Positions 190 to 8,040 of a stretch of DNA of 33,610 nucleotides are shown in pieces. The translations under genes and the position numbers were made by a program. The notes under the pieces are model-generated. The model did not search any database and had not been told where the DNA came from. It saw only the letters and a program-made list of their open reading frames with translations. Position 1 is the stretch's first letter. Each line of letters starts with the position of its first letter. This DNA comes from Bacillota bacterium. Its GTDB lineage: Bacteria; Bacillota; Dethiobacteria; Dethiobacterales; Dethiobacteraceae. The stretch covers positions 1 to 33,610 of the forward strand of contig JAAZJT010000148.1 of assembly GCA_012800215.1 (NCBI GenBank), written 5' to 3'.

Positions 190-1404
190 ATGTCACAATT
201 GCGCAGCATTAAAGAAATTAACGAAAAGATTAGTAAAGGGCAAGCTGTGGTAGCTACGGCGGAAGAAGTTTTATCCATTGTGGCTGAGCAGGGAGTAGAA
301 GAAGCTGCCCGCCGGGTTGATGTTGTTACCACAGGTACCTTTGGGCCCATGTGCTCTAGCGGAGCTTTTCTTAATTTGGGGCATACAACACCGCGGATGC
401 GTATGACAAAGGTTTATCTTAACGGAGTAAATGCTTATGCCGGTATCGCTGCTGTTGATGTTTACTTAGGGGCGACGGAGATTCCTGAAACAGATCCGGC
501 TAATACAAATTTCCCTGGAGATTTTAATTATGGCGGTGCCCATGTTATAGAAGACCTGGTGGCGGGTAAGAAAGTCCGTTTGGAGGCCCTTTCCTACGGT
601 ACTAACTGTTACCCACGCAGGAAGCTGGAGACATATATTACACTTGACGATATTAATGAAGCTTATCTTTTTAACCCACGTAACTGTTACCAAAATTATA
701 ATGTGGCTGTTAATTTGTCGGAACGTACAATTTATACCTATATGGGCATTTTAAAGCCGGAACTGGGTAATGCCACTTATTCCAGTGCCGGACAATTATC
801 ACCGCTTTTAAATGATCCTTACTACAGAACAATTGGAGTGGGGACAAAAATATTTTTAGGCGGAGGCATCGGTTATGTGGCCTGGCAGGGTACACAGCAT
901 AATCCATGTGTGCAGCGCAGTGCCAATGGCGTTCCCCGGGAAGGAGCGGGAACTTTGGCGCTGATAGGCGATTTGAAACAAATGAAGGCAAAATATTTGC
1001 GGGGAGTTAGCTTTTTGGGTTATGGTGTATCTATGCAGGTGGGAGTAGGTATACCGATTCCGATTTTAGATGTAGAGACAATGCGCTACGCCACTGTAAA
1101 GGATGAAGATATTGTGGCGCAGGTTGTTGATTATGGGGAAGCTTATCCGCAAGGCAGTGGCGGCAGCCTGGGAGAGGTGACTTACGCGGAATTAAAATCA
1201 GGTAAGATAATTGTTCAGGGCAGGGAAGTACCCACAGCGCCCCTTTCCAGTTATCCGAAAGCTTTAGAAATTGCACAGCTGCTTAAGCACTGGATTGAAA
1301 AAGGTGAGTTTACTCTCGCAGAGCCGGTAGCAACTTTGCCGTCTGCTGATTCCTCTATTAAAATGCATAAATTAACAGAAAAAGGGGGCAACACTAATGA
1401 TTAA
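190..1404 (+). CDS. Homocysteine biosynthesis protein, DUF39 (COG1900) family
   Basis: This 404-residue soluble protein belongs to the DUF39/COG1900 family. In methanogens this family, together with a NIL-ferredoxin protein, is needed to make homocysteine from aspartate semialdehyde and sulfide without the usual acyl-homoserine route. Visible features are the GTFGPMCSSG segment with Cys55, SYGTNCYPRRK with Cys140, and Cys166; these Cys are candidates for carrying sulfur. A glycine-rich region (IFLGGGIGYVAWQGTQHNP) follows near residues 220-240. The start is ATG 190 behind GGGAGGATGAGCA. The next gene starts 8 bases before this one ends, so the two are probably translationally coupled. The SAM riboswitch in front independently supports a role in methionine/SAM synthesis. 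The exact chemistry remains inferred from homologues. Confidence 0.92.
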   Translation: MSQLRSIKEINEKISKGQAVVATAEEVLSIVAEQGVEEAARRVDVVTTGTFGPMCSSGAFLNLGHTTPRMRMTKVYLNGVNAYAGIAAVDVYLGATEIPETDPANTNFPGDFNYGGAHVIEDLVAGKKVRLEALSYGTNCYPRRKLETYITLDDINEAYLFNPRNCYQNYNVAVNLSERTIYTYMGILKPELGNATYSSAGQLSPLLNDPYYRTIGVGTKIFLGGGIGYVAWQGTQHNPCVQRSANGVPREGAGTLALIGDLKQMKAKYLRGVSFLGYGVSMQVGVGIPIPILDVETMRYATVKDEDIVAQVVDYGEAYPQGSGGSLGEVTYAELKSGKIIVQGREVPTAPLSSYPKALEIAQLLKHWIEKGEFTLAEPVATLPSADSSIKMHKLTEKGGNTND

Positions 1405-1816
1405 AAGCAAAGTAGTGCTGCGTTTTCCTGCTTCAGTGGTGGAACAGCCCTTCATTTATACCTTGATTAAGGAATATAACATCATTGCTAATATACTTAA
1501 AGCTAATATCAACCCGCGTAAAGAAGGCAATATGGTTGTGGAACTTAAAGCTGCAGAGAGCGATTTCAAAGCAGGTATAGAATTTTTACAGGAGCGCGGT
1601 GTAATGGTGCTGCCTTTGGAGCGGCAGATTGTCTGGTGGGAAGACCGCTGTACGCAGTGTGGTTTCTGTACAGCAATCTGCCCGACTGACGCCTTATGGA
1701 TGGAAAGGCCGAAAATGACGGTATCGTTTTGCAGTGAAAAGTGTATTGTCTGTGAACAATGCCTGAAGGCTTGTCCTGCCCGCGCTATGGAAGCACTATA
1801 TCAGGCTGAGGAGTAG
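1397..1816 (+). CDS. NIL domain / 4Fe-4S ferredoxin protein, homocysteine biosynthesis partner
   Basis: This 139-residue protein has an N-terminal NIL domain (about residues 3-75), a fold often found in methionine-related proteins. A two-cluster ferredoxin domain follows. The cluster ligands are Cys85, 88, 91, 95 (CTQCGFCTAICP) and Cys116, 119, 122, 126 (CIVCEQCLKACP), both complete. In methanogens the homologue acts with the DUF39 protein, probably supplying electrons or handling sulfur during homocysteine formation. The start ATG 1397 lies inside the end of the DUF39 gene and is preceded by GGGGGC at a normal spacing. UPF0280 follows 7 bases downstream, so the three genes form one operon. 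Confidence 0.92.
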   Translation: MIKSKVVLRFPASVVEQPFIYTLIKEYNIIANILKANINPRKEGNMVVELKAAESDFKAGIEFLQERGVMVLPLERQIVWWEDRCTQCGFCTAICPTDALWMERPKMTVSFCSEKCIVCEQCLKACPARAMEALYQAEE

Positions 1817-1823
1817 GTAAAAC

Positions 1824-2567
1824 ATGCCGGATCATTCGCGCCGTCACTATAGAAAGTGTATGCAGCCTGCAGGTTTTGTCAGCTTTAATTGCAAAATTAA
1901 GGAGACAGATTTACAAATTGCAGTGGATGAAAAAAGTTACTACCCGCAGCTTGAGGCATTAGTTGAAAAACGTATTCTGGCTTACCGTTTGCAATTGGAA
2001 CAATATATTGTTCAGGATCCCCTTTTTGCTGAGACTTTACAGCCACATTTAGTACCACTGCAGGCACCGCTTATAGTGTTGGCCATGACACGGGCAGCAA
2101 ACCAGGCTGAAGTGGGGCCAATGGCCGCAGTGGCGGGAGCAGTGGCAGAATTTGTGGGGCGTGATTTATTAGCTGCTGTGGATGAAGTGATAGTAGAGAA
2201 CGGAGGAGATATTTTTCTCGCGGTGAAGAAAAAAACTAAAGTTGCCGTTTACGCGGGAAATTCACCTTTAAGCAACCGTTTGGCCATAGAAGTGCCGCCG
2301 CAAAAAAACGGCTTTGGTATTTGTACCTCGTCGGGAACAGTGGGGCCATCATTTAGTTTTGGTCGTGCCGATGCAGCTGTTATTGTTTCTTCCTCTGCAG
2401 TGTTGGCAGATGCTGTAGCTACGGCTGCAGCAAATCGTGTGCAGACAAGTGAGGATTTGCAAAATGCGCTGCAATTTGCCCGTCAAGTCCCCGGAGTTTC
2501 CGGCATCTTGCTGATTAAAGATGATAAACTTGCTGCCTGGGGGCAGCTTAAGCTTGTTTCCCTTTAA
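1824..2567 (+). CDS. UPF0280 (COG2122) ApbE-like protein
   Basis: This 247-residue protein is of the UPF0280 family, which shares an ApbE-like fold. Conserved pieces are GPMAAVAGAVAE (99-110), the ENGGDIFL motif (125-132) and GICTSSGTVGPSFSFGRADA (165-184). The family co-occurs with DUF39 and NIL-ferredoxin genes and has been linked genetically to homocysteine synthesis. The position here, third in a SAM-riboswitch operon, agrees with that. ApbE proteins transfer flavin, but whether this one handles a flavin or acts as a scaffold cannot be told from sequence. The start is ATG 1824, with GAGGAG about 12 bases upstream. Confidence 0.9.
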   Translation: MPDHSRRHYRKCMQPAGFVSFNCKIKETDLQIAVDEKSYYPQLEALVEKRILAYRLQLEQYIVQDPLFAETLQPHLVPLQAPLIVLAMTRAANQAEVGPMAAVAGAVAEFVGRDLLAAVDEVIVENGGDIFLAVKKKTKVAVYAGNSPLSNRLAIEVPPQKNGFGICTSSGTVGPSFSFGRADAAVIVSSSAVLADAVATAAANRVQTSEDLQNALQFARQVPGVSGILLIKDDKLAAWGQLKLVSL

Positions 2568-4094: not shown

Positions 4095-4949
4095 ATGCAG
4101 CAATTTGATGTGGCAATTATTGGCTGTGGTCCGGCTGGGTTATCGGCGGCTATAAATGTAAAGGCACAAAACCGTACAGTATTATTGGTAGGACCAAAAA
4201 TTTGTAGCCTTTCTTTACATAAAGCACATCAGGTTAATAATTACTTAGGATTTTATGGACTTTCAGGGGAGGAGCTGCGTCAGCAGTTTCTGAAACATAT
4301 TGAAGCAGCGGGAATTGAAATTACAAACATTACCGTTTCCGGTATTTACCCAATGGGAAAGGTTTTTCAGCTGCAAATCCGTGATGATTTTGTAGAAGCA
4401 AAGGCAATTATCCTTACAACCGGTGTTACCGCAAGTAAAGTCTTGCCGGGAGAAGATTCCTTTCTGGGCAAAGGAGTTTCTTACTGTGCTGCATGTGATG
4501 CCATGTTTTATCGGGATAAAACAATTGTGGTCAGCAGTGATTCGGCAGAGCATGAAGATGAAGTCAGATTATTAACGGAAGTTGCGGCGAAAGTTTACTA
4601 CTTGCCGCAGTATGAAGTAAAAATGAACTTGCCTGACAATGTGGAGGTACTGGATAGTAAGATTAAGAAGTTAAAAGGTTCAGACCGCCTTGAAGTTGTG
4701 GAGCTGCAAAATGGGCAGGAATTAACAGTGGATGGTGTTTTCCTCCTGAAAGAACAATTGCCGCCAACACAGATTGTTCCCGGACTGCAGCTGGAAGACA
4801 AACATATAAAGGTTGATGAAAAAATGGCGACCAATATACCTGGTGTCTTTGCCGCCGGTGATGTAACAGGAAGACCATATCAGGTGGCTAAAGCGGTGGG
4901 ACAAGGGCAAATTGCCGCTTTTAGTGCTGTAGCTTGGGTGCAGAATTAG
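4095..4949 (+). CDS. Thioredoxin-reductase-like flavoprotein lacking NADPH motifs
   Basis: This 284-residue FAD protein has the TrxR layout. The FAD-binding GCGPAGLSAA lies at 10-19, a redox CAAC at 131-134 is followed by DAMFYR, and the C-terminal FAD motif GVFAAGDVTGRPYQVAKAVGQG is present. The NADPH-binding GGGDSA/HRRxxxR pair of normal TrxR is missing. The first site reads VVSSDSAEHEDE (145-156) and the second reads YYLPQYE. The protein is also shorter than the usual 305-315 residues. Clostridial ferredoxin-dependent flavin thioredoxin reductases lose the same motifs, so ferredoxin or another non-NADPH donor is a reasonable inference. The start ATG 4095 has AAGGAGGAATGATCA in front. The MoxR gene begins 51 bases after its stop, so co-transcription is possible. 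Confidence 0.85.
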   Translation: MQQFDVAIIGCGPAGLSAAINVKAQNRTVLLVGPKICSLSLHKAHQVNNYLGFYGLSGEELRQQFLKHIEAAGIEITNITVSGIYPMGKVFQLQIRDDFVEAKAIILTTGVTASKVLPGEDSFLGKGVSYCAACDAMFYRDKTIVVSSDSAEHEDEVRLLTEVAAKVYYLPQYEVKMNLPDNVEVLDSKIKKLKGSDRLEVVELQNGQELTVDGVFLLKEQLPPTQIVPGLQLEDKHIKVDEKMATNIPGVFAAGDVTGRPYQVAKAVGQGQIAAFSAVAWVQN

Positions 4950-5000: not shown

Positions 5001-5891
5001 GTGGAGTTGACTGTGGCAGATTTGCGTAAAGCCTTTTTGCAGGCAGGTTACATTACCAACGAAGAAGTGCTGCTGACAGTTTTTTTGGCCCTGCAGTTAG
5101 AAAAACCTCTTTTAGTTGAAGGTGAACCAGGCGTAGGAAAAACAGAACTGGCAAAAGTATTGGCCACTGCTTTTCAGACGGAACTTATTCGCCTGCAATG
5201 TTATGAAGGTTTGGATGAAAATAAAGCTCTTTATGAGTGGAATTATCAAAGGCAGCTTCTGAAAATTCAAATGTCTAAAGATTTATCCGGCAGCAAAGAG
5301 TTGGAGGATGATTTGTTTTCTCCTGCCTATCTTTTGCAGCGGCCTTTATTGAAAGCTATTCAATCTCAGCAAAAAGTGGTACTTTTGATTGATGAAGTCG
5401 ATAAAACTGATGAAGAATTTGAAGCTTTTTTATTTGAAGTGTTATCTGACTTTCAAGTTTCTATCCCTGAATTGGGTACAATTAAATCTTTACAAATCCC
5501 CATTGTTATTTTAACCAGTAATAATGAGCGTGAATTATCAGATGGATTAAAACGACGTTGTGTTTATCTTTATTTAGATTACCCGCCGGTGGAGCAGGAG
5601 GTTAAAATGATCCAGGCTCGTCTGCCTGATGTAGGTGAAAAGTTGGCGCACGAAGTTGCTCGGGCCATTTCTTTAATTAGGCAGGAACAGGAAATCAGAA
5701 AAAAACCTTCAATAGCTGAAACGCTTGACTGGGTCAGGGCATTAATGGCCTTGGGGAAAGACCGCCTTGATGCGTCGTTAATTGATCAAACACTAAACTT
5801 TATTCTTAAAACCAAAACAGACCAAGATGTTTTTCAAAGAAAGGTTGGTGCTTCCCGCTTACTTGCAGCTGCACGGGCGGAAAAGCCATGA
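5001..5891 (+). CDS. MoxR-type AAA+ ATPase
   Basis: This 296-residue AAA+ protein is of the MoxR class. Walker A GEPGVGKT is at 41-48, Walker B VVLLIDE at 126-132, sensor-1 TSN at 172-174, and RR at 185-186 is a probable arginine finger. MoxR ATPases work with a VWA partner to remodel or metallate target enzymes (CoxD/CoxE, NorQ/NorD, CbbQ/CbbO). The partner is the next gene, which overlaps by 4 bases. The start is GTG 5001 with GGGTGA upstream. The third gene of the group is CooC, pointing to CO dehydrogenase as the target. That target is an inference, because no catalytic subunit lies in the window. Confidence 0.9.
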   Translation: MELTVADLRKAFLQAGYITNEEVLLTVFLALQLEKPLLVEGEPGVGKTELAKVLATAFQTELIRLQCYEGLDENKALYEWNYQRQLLKIQMSKDLSGSKELEDDLFSPAYLLQRPLLKAIQSQQKVVLLIDEVDKTDEEFEAFLFEVLSDFQVSIPELGTIKSLQIPIVILTSNNERELSDGLKRRCVYLYLDYPPVEQEVKMIQARLPDVGEKLAHEVARAISLIRQEQEIRKKPSIAETLDWVRALMALGKDRLDASLIDQTLNFILKTKTDQDVFQRKVGASRLLAAARAEKP

Positions 5892-7222
5892 AAAACTATT
5901 TGGAAATAAATATTGTTAGATTTATACAGCTTTTACGCCATGCAGGTTTGCGTATTGGCAGTGGCGAAGTAATGGATGCTCTGCGGGCATTAACCTTCAT
6001 TGATTTAAGGAAGCGTGATGATGTGCGTATTGCACTGCAGGCTACTTTAGTAAAACATCCCGAAGAACAGCAAGTTTTTACAAAAGCTTTTGACATTTTT
6101 TTTGCTTCTCCACAGTCTCGCCAGGAATTACAAAAGCAATACCAGCAAAAAGAAGAAAATAAGAAACAGCAGCTGGAGCAGGCAGCCAAGGAATTAACTT
6201 TTCAGGGTAAACCTTTAGAATTGTCGGCACGAGAAAAAATGATATATGCCAATATTCCTGAAGCAGATCGCCAGCGCCTGCTGTCATATATTCGCAAAAC
6301 GGCTACTGGGATTAATGTTGAGGGGCACTTTCAGCCGGTTTTGGAAAGTGTCATCAGAGGTTCCCTTGCTTACTGGCGCCGTAGTTTGCGTAATGAACTG
6401 GACCTTACATTGACACCGCCTACAGAAGACGAAGAATTAAATGCTTTTTTAGCTGAGATAGGAAATACAGATTATGGCCGTACTGATTCCCTACTGGCTG
6501 AAGATATGCAGAATATACCAGATAAAGATTTGCCGCGCGCACGGGTATTAATACGCAAGTTGGCGCGGCAGATGGTGGCAAGGATTGCCCGCCGCTACCG
6601 CCAAAGCCGCAAACAAAAAAAATTGGATTTACGTAAAAGTATTAGGCATAATCTGCGCTATGGCGGTTCAATGTTTACTTTACGTTATCGCAGCCGCCGG
6701 GTGCAAAAACCAAAAATATTATTACTCTGTGATGTCTCCGGGTCTATGGCACGATATGCCAGTTTTGTGCTACAATTCATTTATGGTATTCATGATGTTG
6801 TTGCCGATATTGAGAGTTTTGTTTTCGCAGAAGGGATAGAACGTGTAACAGCTTATTTTCAGGGCAATATTGATTTCACGGAAACTATGCTCACAGTGAT
6901 GAATAATTCACAAGAATGGGGGCGTGGTACCAATTTAGGCGCAGCTTTACAAGCTTTACAGCAGGACTTTGAGCGACTCTTGACTAATCAAACTTATCTC
7001 TTAGTTGTTAGCGATACAAAAACACTCCATGTAGCTGATGCAGTGCAGGAGTTAACACAGATAAAAAGAGTGGTAAAAGATATAATCTGGCTGAACACAT
7101 TGCCGGCTTCCAGTTGGGAGACCACCGTTTCTGTAGAGTCGTTCAGAAAAATAGTACGCATGTATCCCTGTAATACTTTATCTGATTTGGAACAGGTAAT
7201 GCGTGAAAAAATAATTGCCTAG
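5888..7222 (+). CDS. VWA domain protein, CoxE-like
   Basis: This 444-residue protein has a helical, charged N-terminal half and a C-terminal von Willebrand A domain from about residue 275. The metal-dependent adhesion site is intact: CDVSGSM gives Asp282, Ser284 and Ser286, and GRGTNLG provides the following Thr348. It matches the CoxE-like family that pairs with MoxR ATPases. A Lys/Gln-rich helix around 82-105 and an Arg-rich stretch around 215-275 could be binding surfaces. There is no signal peptide, so it is cytoplasmic. The start ATG overlaps the stop of the MoxR gene, indicating coupled translation. Confidence 0.88.
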   Translation: MKNYLEINIVRFIQLLRHAGLRIGSGEVMDALRALTFIDLRKRDDVRIALQATLVKHPEEQQVFTKAFDIFFASPQSRQELQKQYQQKEENKKQQLEQAAKELTFQGKPLELSAREKMIYANIPEADRQRLLSYIRKTATGINVEGHFQPVLESVIRGSLAYWRRSLRNELDLTLTPPTEDEELNAFLAEIGNTDYGRTDSLLAEDMQNIPDKDLPRARVLIRKLARQMVARIARRYRQSRKQKKLDLRKSIRHNLRYGGSMFTLRYRSRRVQKPKILLLCDVSGSMARYASFVLQFIYGIHDVVADIESFVFAEGIERVTAYFQGNIDFTETMLTVMNNSQEWGRGTNLGAALQALQQDFERLLTNQTYLLVVSDTKTLHVADAVQELTQIKRVVKDIIWLNTLPASSWETTVSVESFRKIVRMYPCNTLSDLEQVMREKIIA

Positions 7223-7246
7223 ATTAGAGCACAGGAGGGATTTAAT

Positions 7247-7999
7247 ATGAAACAAATTGCTATTGCTGGGAAAGGCGGCGTAGGGAAAACAACGTTTACA
7301 GCATTATTGATGCGCTATTTAATGCAAAACAAGCCGGGTAAATCAATGCTAGCTGTAGACGCAGATCCCAATGCCAATCTGAACGAGACGCTTGGGGTTG
7401 AGGTGGAAAATACTATTTCTGCTATTTTGGAGGATACCAAGAAACCCAATGCTGTTCCCACAGGCATGTCGAAAGAAATGTATATTGAATACAAAATGCA
7501 GGCTGCCATGGTTGAGACTAATGAATTTGACCTATTGGTAATGGGTAATCCACAAGGAGCCGGCTGCTATTGTTATCCTAATGATTTGCTGCGTAAGCAT
7601 TTAGAGAAACTGCGCAGTAATTATGATTACGTTATTGTTGATAATGAAGCAGGCTTGGAGCATTTAAGCCGCCGTATAATTTCCGATGTGGATATGCTAA
7701 TCGTGGTCAGTGACGCTGCTGCCCGCAGTATTCGTTCAGCAGCTCGTGTGCATGAGATTGTCAAATCTGTGGGACTTGATATTAAGGAAATATATTTAGT
7801 GGTAACAAAGGTAACAGGTAATGAAATAGAAATGCTGCAGCCGGAGATTGAAAAAACAGGGCTGCAGTTAATTGGCACAGTCCCAATGGATCCGTTAGTT
7901 GCAGAATATGATGTGCAGGGTAAGGCTCTGCTGAAATTACCTGACGATGCGCCTGTAGTTAAAGCAACAAATGAGATTCTAAATAAACTTACATTATAA
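7247..7999 (+). CDS. cooC: CooC-type nickel-inserting ATPase for CO dehydrogenase
   Basis: This is a 250-residue MinD/ParA-type P-loop ATPase. The deviant Walker A KGGVGKTT is at 9-16 and VDADPNANL near 37-45. The CooC-specific CYC motif (Cys107 and Cys109) lies in GCYCYPNDLLRKHL; in CooC dimers this pair binds the metal. The segment YVIVDNEAGLEHLSRR is also typical. CooC uses ATP to mature the Ni-Fe-S C cluster of anaerobic CO dehydrogenase. The start ATG 7247 has AGGAGGGATTTAAT and lies 24 bases after the VWA gene, so one transcript with MoxR/VWA is likely. The CODH itself is not in the window. Related CooC-like ATPases of unknown target also carry CxC, so the exact client is uncertain. Confidence 0.88.
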   Translation: MKQIAIAGKGGVGKTTFTALLMRYLMQNKPGKSMLAVDADPNANLNETLGVEVENTISAILEDTKKPNAVPTGMSKEMYIEYKMQAAMVETNEFDLLVMGNPQGAGCYCYPNDLLRKHLEKLRSNYDYVIVDNEAGLEHLSRRIISDVDMLIVVSDAAARSIRSAARVHEIVKSVGLDIKEIYLVVTKVTGNEIEMLQPEIEKTGLQLIGTVPMDPLVAEYDVQGKALLKLPDDAPVVKATNEILNKLTL

Positions 8000-8000
8000 A

Positions 8001-8040
8001 AAGTGCGGAAACTCCTGGTCGCAGGAGTTTCTGTACTTTA
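8001..8040. terminator. Convergent-gene hairpin after cooC
   Basis: GAAACTCCTG (8008-8017) and CAGGAGTTTC (8022-8031) form a perfect 10-bp stem with a GTCG loop. The flanking AAAGT and TACTTT may extend it. The T run is short on both strands. It sits between converging genes and may end transcription both ways. Confidence 0.75.

Follow-up and report, generated by a model that had tools for sequence, protein, structure and literature searches.

The Wood-Ljungdahl pathway has CODH/ACS as its central enzyme, which makes acetyl-CoA from CO2 and is a target for biotechnology. The way in which nickel reaches its metal sites is only partly understood. CbbQ/CbbO, a MoxR-VWA pair, is a Rubisco activase that removes inhibitors. 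Another such pair, NorQD, inserts iron (FeB) into the nitric oxide reductase cNOR, and has been proposed to twist and stretch NorD, opening cNOR (PMC13036017). CoxD/CoxE belong to the aerobic Mo-Cu CO dehydrogenase (PMC4240915, PMC3471820). Some CODHs, according to a genomic-context study, require maturases to reach their active form (PMC13056359).

A MoxR-VWA-CooC locus

The window (the whole stretch of DNA analysed, 33,610 nt) belongs to a Bacillota assembly of 1.8 Mb in 187 contigs. Its features of concern here are:

4095..4949, + strand: thioredoxin-reductase-like flavoprotein (TIGR01292, E 1e-53, below cut-off)
5001..5891, + strand: MoxR-type AAA+ ATPase (GTG start, 296 aa)
5888..7222, + strand: CoxE-like VWA protein (ATG start, 444 aa)
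7247..7999, + strand: CooC-type ATPase (ATG start, 250 aa)
8008..8031, no strand assigned: inverted repeat between the CooC gene and the convergent next gene

An initial annotation had described a tight MoxR-VWA-CooC cluster, and the ORF coordinates and family matches agree: the MoxR and VWA reading frames share 4 nt, and 24 nt separate VWA from CooC. The flavoprotein gene ends 51 nt upstream of MoxR and is possibly in one transcription unit with the trio; it has the equal position in two related genera (L037 and L038) and not in a third locus (L039). The inverted repeat has a terminator-like score on the minus strand only, and shuffled sequence would be expected to give about as many sites of this kind. 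Elsewhere in the window (190-2567), genes for an HcyBio (PF01837) protein, a ferredoxin-type protein and a UPF0280-type protein lie in a row that resembles the sulfide-to-homocysteine set of methanogens and some anaerobes.

The MoxR protein matches Pfam AAA_5 (E 2.4e-11) and an NCBIfam MadB-like model (E 4e-83, under its curated cut-off). Its Walker A (GEPGVGKT) and Walker B (LLIDEVDK) motifs are intact, and their residues are invariant among 12 orthologs of 54-71% identity. The VWA protein, which matches VWA_CoxE (PF05762, E 1.1e-36), has a helical N-terminal half and a C-terminal VWA domain with a complete MIDAS (D282-S284-S286, T348, D376), invariant across 38 orthologs. Thus two marks of a MoxR AAA+/VWA pair are present, intact Walker motifs A and B and an adjacent VWA partner with a MIDAS. 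A PDB search with the VWA sequence gave no match; its AlphaFold model, of modest confidence (pLDDT 80, pTM 0.51), has NorD of NorQD (9qhg) as top fold match at E 7.9e-6, with many other VWA domains matching too. The third protein is a CooC/MinD-type ATPase whose top PDB match is CooC 3kje (E 2.8e-20); it carries the deviant Walker A (GKGGVGKTT) and the CxC (residues 107/109) of the CooC nickel ATPase family. No Mo-CODH genes (coxMSL) were found among the window proteins scanned.

The window CooC is on contig C93 of the source genome, with acs genes on C119 and C39. C119 has a cooC-cooS-acsB operon whose acsB is cut by the contig end, and C3 has a lone second cooS. On C39 a divergent second acsB (L034:4107-6233), 47% identical to the native type, stands alone outside any acs operon; G420 and G414 likewise have both acsB types.

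Co-occurrence with CODH/ACS

We searched 399 Bacillota genomes for VWA orthologs (E below 1e-50), CooS (TIGR01702) and ACS (PF03598), and found a VWA ortholog in 80. The initial annotation had proposed a check for co-occurrence with cooS and acsB, which proved strong: CooS was present in 78 of the 80 ortholog genomes vs 86 of the remaining 319 (Fisher p 1e-33, a value that ignores relatedness), and acsB in 69/80 vs 44/319, rising to 72/80 if three acs operons truncated at contig ends are counted in. The pattern that the initial annotation had named as refuting its idea, a trio widespread in genomes without any cooS-type gene, is not what we see, with CooS missing from two of the 80. A second sample, chosen by VWA similarity alone and overlapping the first in part, gave acsB in 27 of 33 genomes vs none of 14 that have a distant CoxE-type VWA.

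Nine genomes with the VWA ortholog and CooS seemed to be without acsB. Six of these are 61-89% complete, and in the three complete ones (G253, G277, G344) the acs operons are broken at contig ends. Monofunctional CooS as the sole partner is rejected, because 43 genomes with CooS and no detected acsB are without the pair and because the three complete apparent exceptions have these cut operons. Seven of the 52 CooS genomes without detected acsB have a CooC of the window type (at least 45% identity), and each of the seven also has the VWA ortholog. The partner of the pair therefore looks like the CODH/ACS complex. Counting against this, a few genomes with the pair had no visible CODH (G017, G421; G339 has the second CooC). 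We rejected the idea that the VWA gene of G421 is decayed, since the gene runs off its contig.

A different client with a CODH/ACS-like phyletic pattern, such as the corrinoid protein AcsCD, the activator AcsV or another anaerobic enzyme, would fit with the pair seldom lying within acs operons and with a survey that covered CooS and acs genes as partners. We nevertheless consider such a client unlikely, as G260 and G431 keep acsB-acsC-acsD-acsE yet are without CooS and the pair, and as the pair at locus L067 sits in a cooS operon. The same two observations, together with the absence of the second CooC (see below) from G260 and G431, favour the CODH subunit (AcsA) as the more likely client within CODH/ACS. 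These two genomes, of one genus, apparently have ACS without its CODH; their operon (L251 and L250) has acsB, acsC, acsD and acsE, and neither cooS nor a CooC gene.

Relation of the pair to acs type

For typing we used one acsB as yardstick, type 1 being at least 54% identical to it and the divergent type at most 51% over the full length. Type-1 acsB was present in all 36 VWA-positive genomes tested, and the 22 genomes that have only divergent acsB (in one case a fragment) are all without VWA (p 9e-8, relatedness ignored). The pair is nonetheless dispensable for type-1 ACS genomes, being missing from 22 of the 58 tested (~40%), many of them complete. In the window's family the pair occurs in 12 of 13 genomes with native acsB and in none of seven without it, a contrast that may reflect one or a few evolutionary events. 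Across the whole class the association is weaker (p 0.003, relatedness again ignored), with 15 genomes that have native acsB and no pair detected; in at least one of these (G401) the pair went undetected since the contig ends inside it.

Gene neighbourhoods of the pair

The MoxR gene lies directly 5' of VWA in 67 of the 74 ortholog loci surveyed. This preserved order, and the presence of CooC behind the pair in most class genomes that keep the pair, argue that the arrangement is not due to chance. Of the neighbourhood conservation that the initial annotation had suggested checking, this part held up and the CooC part did not extend beyond one class: what is conserved as a unit is MoxR with VWA, found in very different surroundings, and the full trio is confined to the window's class. 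There CooC follows the pair in families f1, f2, f3, f4, f142 and f144, and in family f5 it is close to the pair but in divergent orientation. CooC as a universal neighbour is ruled out, being absent beside the pair outside the class. A CooC-like gene beside the pair in G027 (L102) was also rejected as evidence for such a neighbour, since it reads as MinD and has MinE behind it.

The pair is rare inside acs operons. Direct linkage to CODH genes occurs at L067 of G004, with the order crp/fnr-cooS-moxR-vwa, and coordinates give identical cooS-moxR-vwa spacing in G051, of the same genus. At L065 and L127, cooC-cooS-acsB follows within a few genes downstream of the pair. Genes for bacillithiol synthesis (bshA, bshB, bshC), Fur-family and Crp/Fnr regulators adjoin the pair at L048, L055, L099-L101, L109, L118 and others. 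Additional copies also occur: family f43 genomes (L069, L078, L093, L105) have a second VWA copy with no MoxR identified immediately before it, and those of family f32 (L042, L043, L047, L111, L113) have a second, divergent MoxR-VWA pair near the CODH-linked one. The second pair of L043 scores best with MadB/MadC, under the cut-off.

The recurrent neighbours bear on the main rival to a maturation role, namely that MoxR-VWA repairs CODH/ACS, reactivating enzyme that is O2-damaged or nickel-depleted or stripping an inhibitor from it, as CbbQO does on Rubisco. Fur, Crp/Fnr and bacillithiol synthesis genes are frequent beside the pair (29, 17 and 19 of 74 loci, respectively), the window has a thioredoxin-reductase-like gene just upstream, many ACS genomes do without the pair, and CbbQO sets a precedent for a MoxR-VWA activase. 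A nickel-handling CooC as third gene suits assembly better, however, and we regard repair as a serious but rather improbable alternative to maturation.

A second type of CooC

In a tree of 71 CooC proteins, those encoded upstream of acsA, including PDB 3kje, split with support 100/99 from a second clade whose members mostly adjoin acsD in acs operons. The window CooC and all other trio CooCs nest inside this second clade, and the window protein is ~30% identical to 3kje; the split rules out its identity as CooC1/AcsF. In a Sporomusa annotation of the standard acs operon, the upstream gene is acsF and that between acsV and acsD is cooC. We read G048 as Carboxydothermus-like because the CooC encoded upstream of its acsA matches 3kje almost exactly. 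The CxC motif is kept in all trio (22/22), acsD-adjacent (13/13) and acsA-upstream (19/19) CooCs.

We found the second CooC in 78 of 80 ACS genomes tested, in 59 of them no more than 8 kb from acsB. The acs operon is thus its usual, though not universal, site (59/78), and the window CooC is not in one. The five acs operons of the window's class that are readable from acsC to acsD (L228-L231, L234) are without a second CooC there; in this class the gene has left the acs operon and is now behind or close to MoxR-VWA. The second CooC is also outside the acs operon in G004 and G090 (L264, L266), beside a D-Ala-D-Ala-ligase-like gene identified by eye.

A possible objection is that the second CooC moved only once, in one class, and came by accident to lie beside an unrelated housekeeping MoxR-VWA pair. 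The restriction of the trio to that class would agree with this, as would several class genomes in which CooC has stayed in this position and MoxR-VWA is missing. Such an accident would leave unexplained both the phylum-wide co-occurrence and the separate linkages to cooS and to acs genes, and we think it very improbable.

Proposed function

The initial annotation had suggested that the AAA+/VWA pair works on the nickel CO dehydrogenase. The link to that enzyme finds support here and can be sharpened to the bifunctional CODH/ACS system, and the accompanying CooC turned out to be of the second acs-operon type rather than CooC1; the maturation role itself is suggested by comparative sequence data. 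Given the near-constant co-occurrence with CODH/ACS, MoxR-VWA and CooC are probably a helper machine for building or reviving this complex. More specifically, we lean somewhat towards the pair being a NorQD-like accessory chaperone machine for CODH/ACS maturation. This proposal draws on gene order, CODH/ACS co-occurrence, CooC orthology, the preservation of the ATPase, MIDAS and CxC motifs, and the resemblance of the modelled fold to NorD.

In such a maturation machine, the MoxR hexamer would spend ATP on turning and stretching the VWA protein. With its N-terminal half and its MIDAS the latter would grip the folded apo-enzyme, so that remodelling of the VWA protein would open the buried metal site of CODH/ACS. 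The CooC encoded behind the pair, using its CxC metal motif, could then supply or lock in nickel, or prime the cluster. Direct contact between machine and client, nickel insertion as the assisted step, and AcsA rather than ACS as client are inferred parts of this scheme.

In a broader statement, which we judge about as likely as not, a dedicated AAA+/VWA motor and a CooC paralog of its own form an undescribed module that matures or reactivates bacterial CODH/ACS. It would be missing where the divergent acs type is present alone, and many anaerobes among the Bacillota would use it (Desulfosporosinus, Sporomusa, Thermacetogenium, Dethiobacter and others). MoxR-VWA metalloenzyme helpers are already known as a kind; a CODH/ACS client and the added CooC would be new. 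The initial annotation had considered the link little described, and our literature search for MoxR together with CODH, CooC, acetogens or ACS, made outside supplements and most subscription papers, likewise gave no paper on it. Neither MoxR nor VWA comes up in the main texts of PMC13056359 and PMC6344411, which both deal with the genomic context of CODH. Operon-centred studies of CODH would mostly miss the pair, because it is rarely in a CODH operon; co-occurrence exposes it. MoxR-VWA is thus a concrete candidate helper of CODH/ACS, and the second acs-operon CooC is offered a possible role.

Comparison with known systems

MadB and MadC are the best NCBIfam models for the window MoxR and VWA proteins, but these are not members, because they score 279 of the 475 and 93 of the 600 bits needed at the curated cut-offs; a literature search on MadBC found nothing. 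CbbQ/CbbO, as described in the literature, resemble the window pair in being a MoxR-VWA pair that acts on a CO2-fixing enzyme.

CoxD/CoxE likewise combine a MoxR ATPase with a PF05762 VWA protein, and the CoxD Walker motifs (GEAGVGKT and DEVD) resemble those of the window MoxR. The CoxD/CoxE comparison of the initial annotation needs correcting in that the CoxE-like VWA proteins of mostly aerobic genomes are only distant relatives, ~23-34% identical to the window protein vs 30-68% over the full length for its orthologs. The client enzyme is unrelated, coxMSL is missing among the window proteins scanned, the pair was found in the survey with CooS and acs genes, and acsB occurs in 0/14 genomes with the CoxE-type VWA.

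The nickel ATPases CooC1/AcsF of CODH/ACS share the CooC family, the P-loop and the CxC with the window CooC, which differs by its place in the other clade, that of second acs-operon CooCs. NorQ/NorD (PMC9976466, PMC13036017) is likewise a MoxR AAA+/VWA gene pair with a metalloenzyme client, and its NorD is the top PDB fold match. The window VWA differs from NorD in having no PDB sequence match, the proposed client is a nickel-iron-sulfur enzyme, and a CooC ATPase is attached to the pair.
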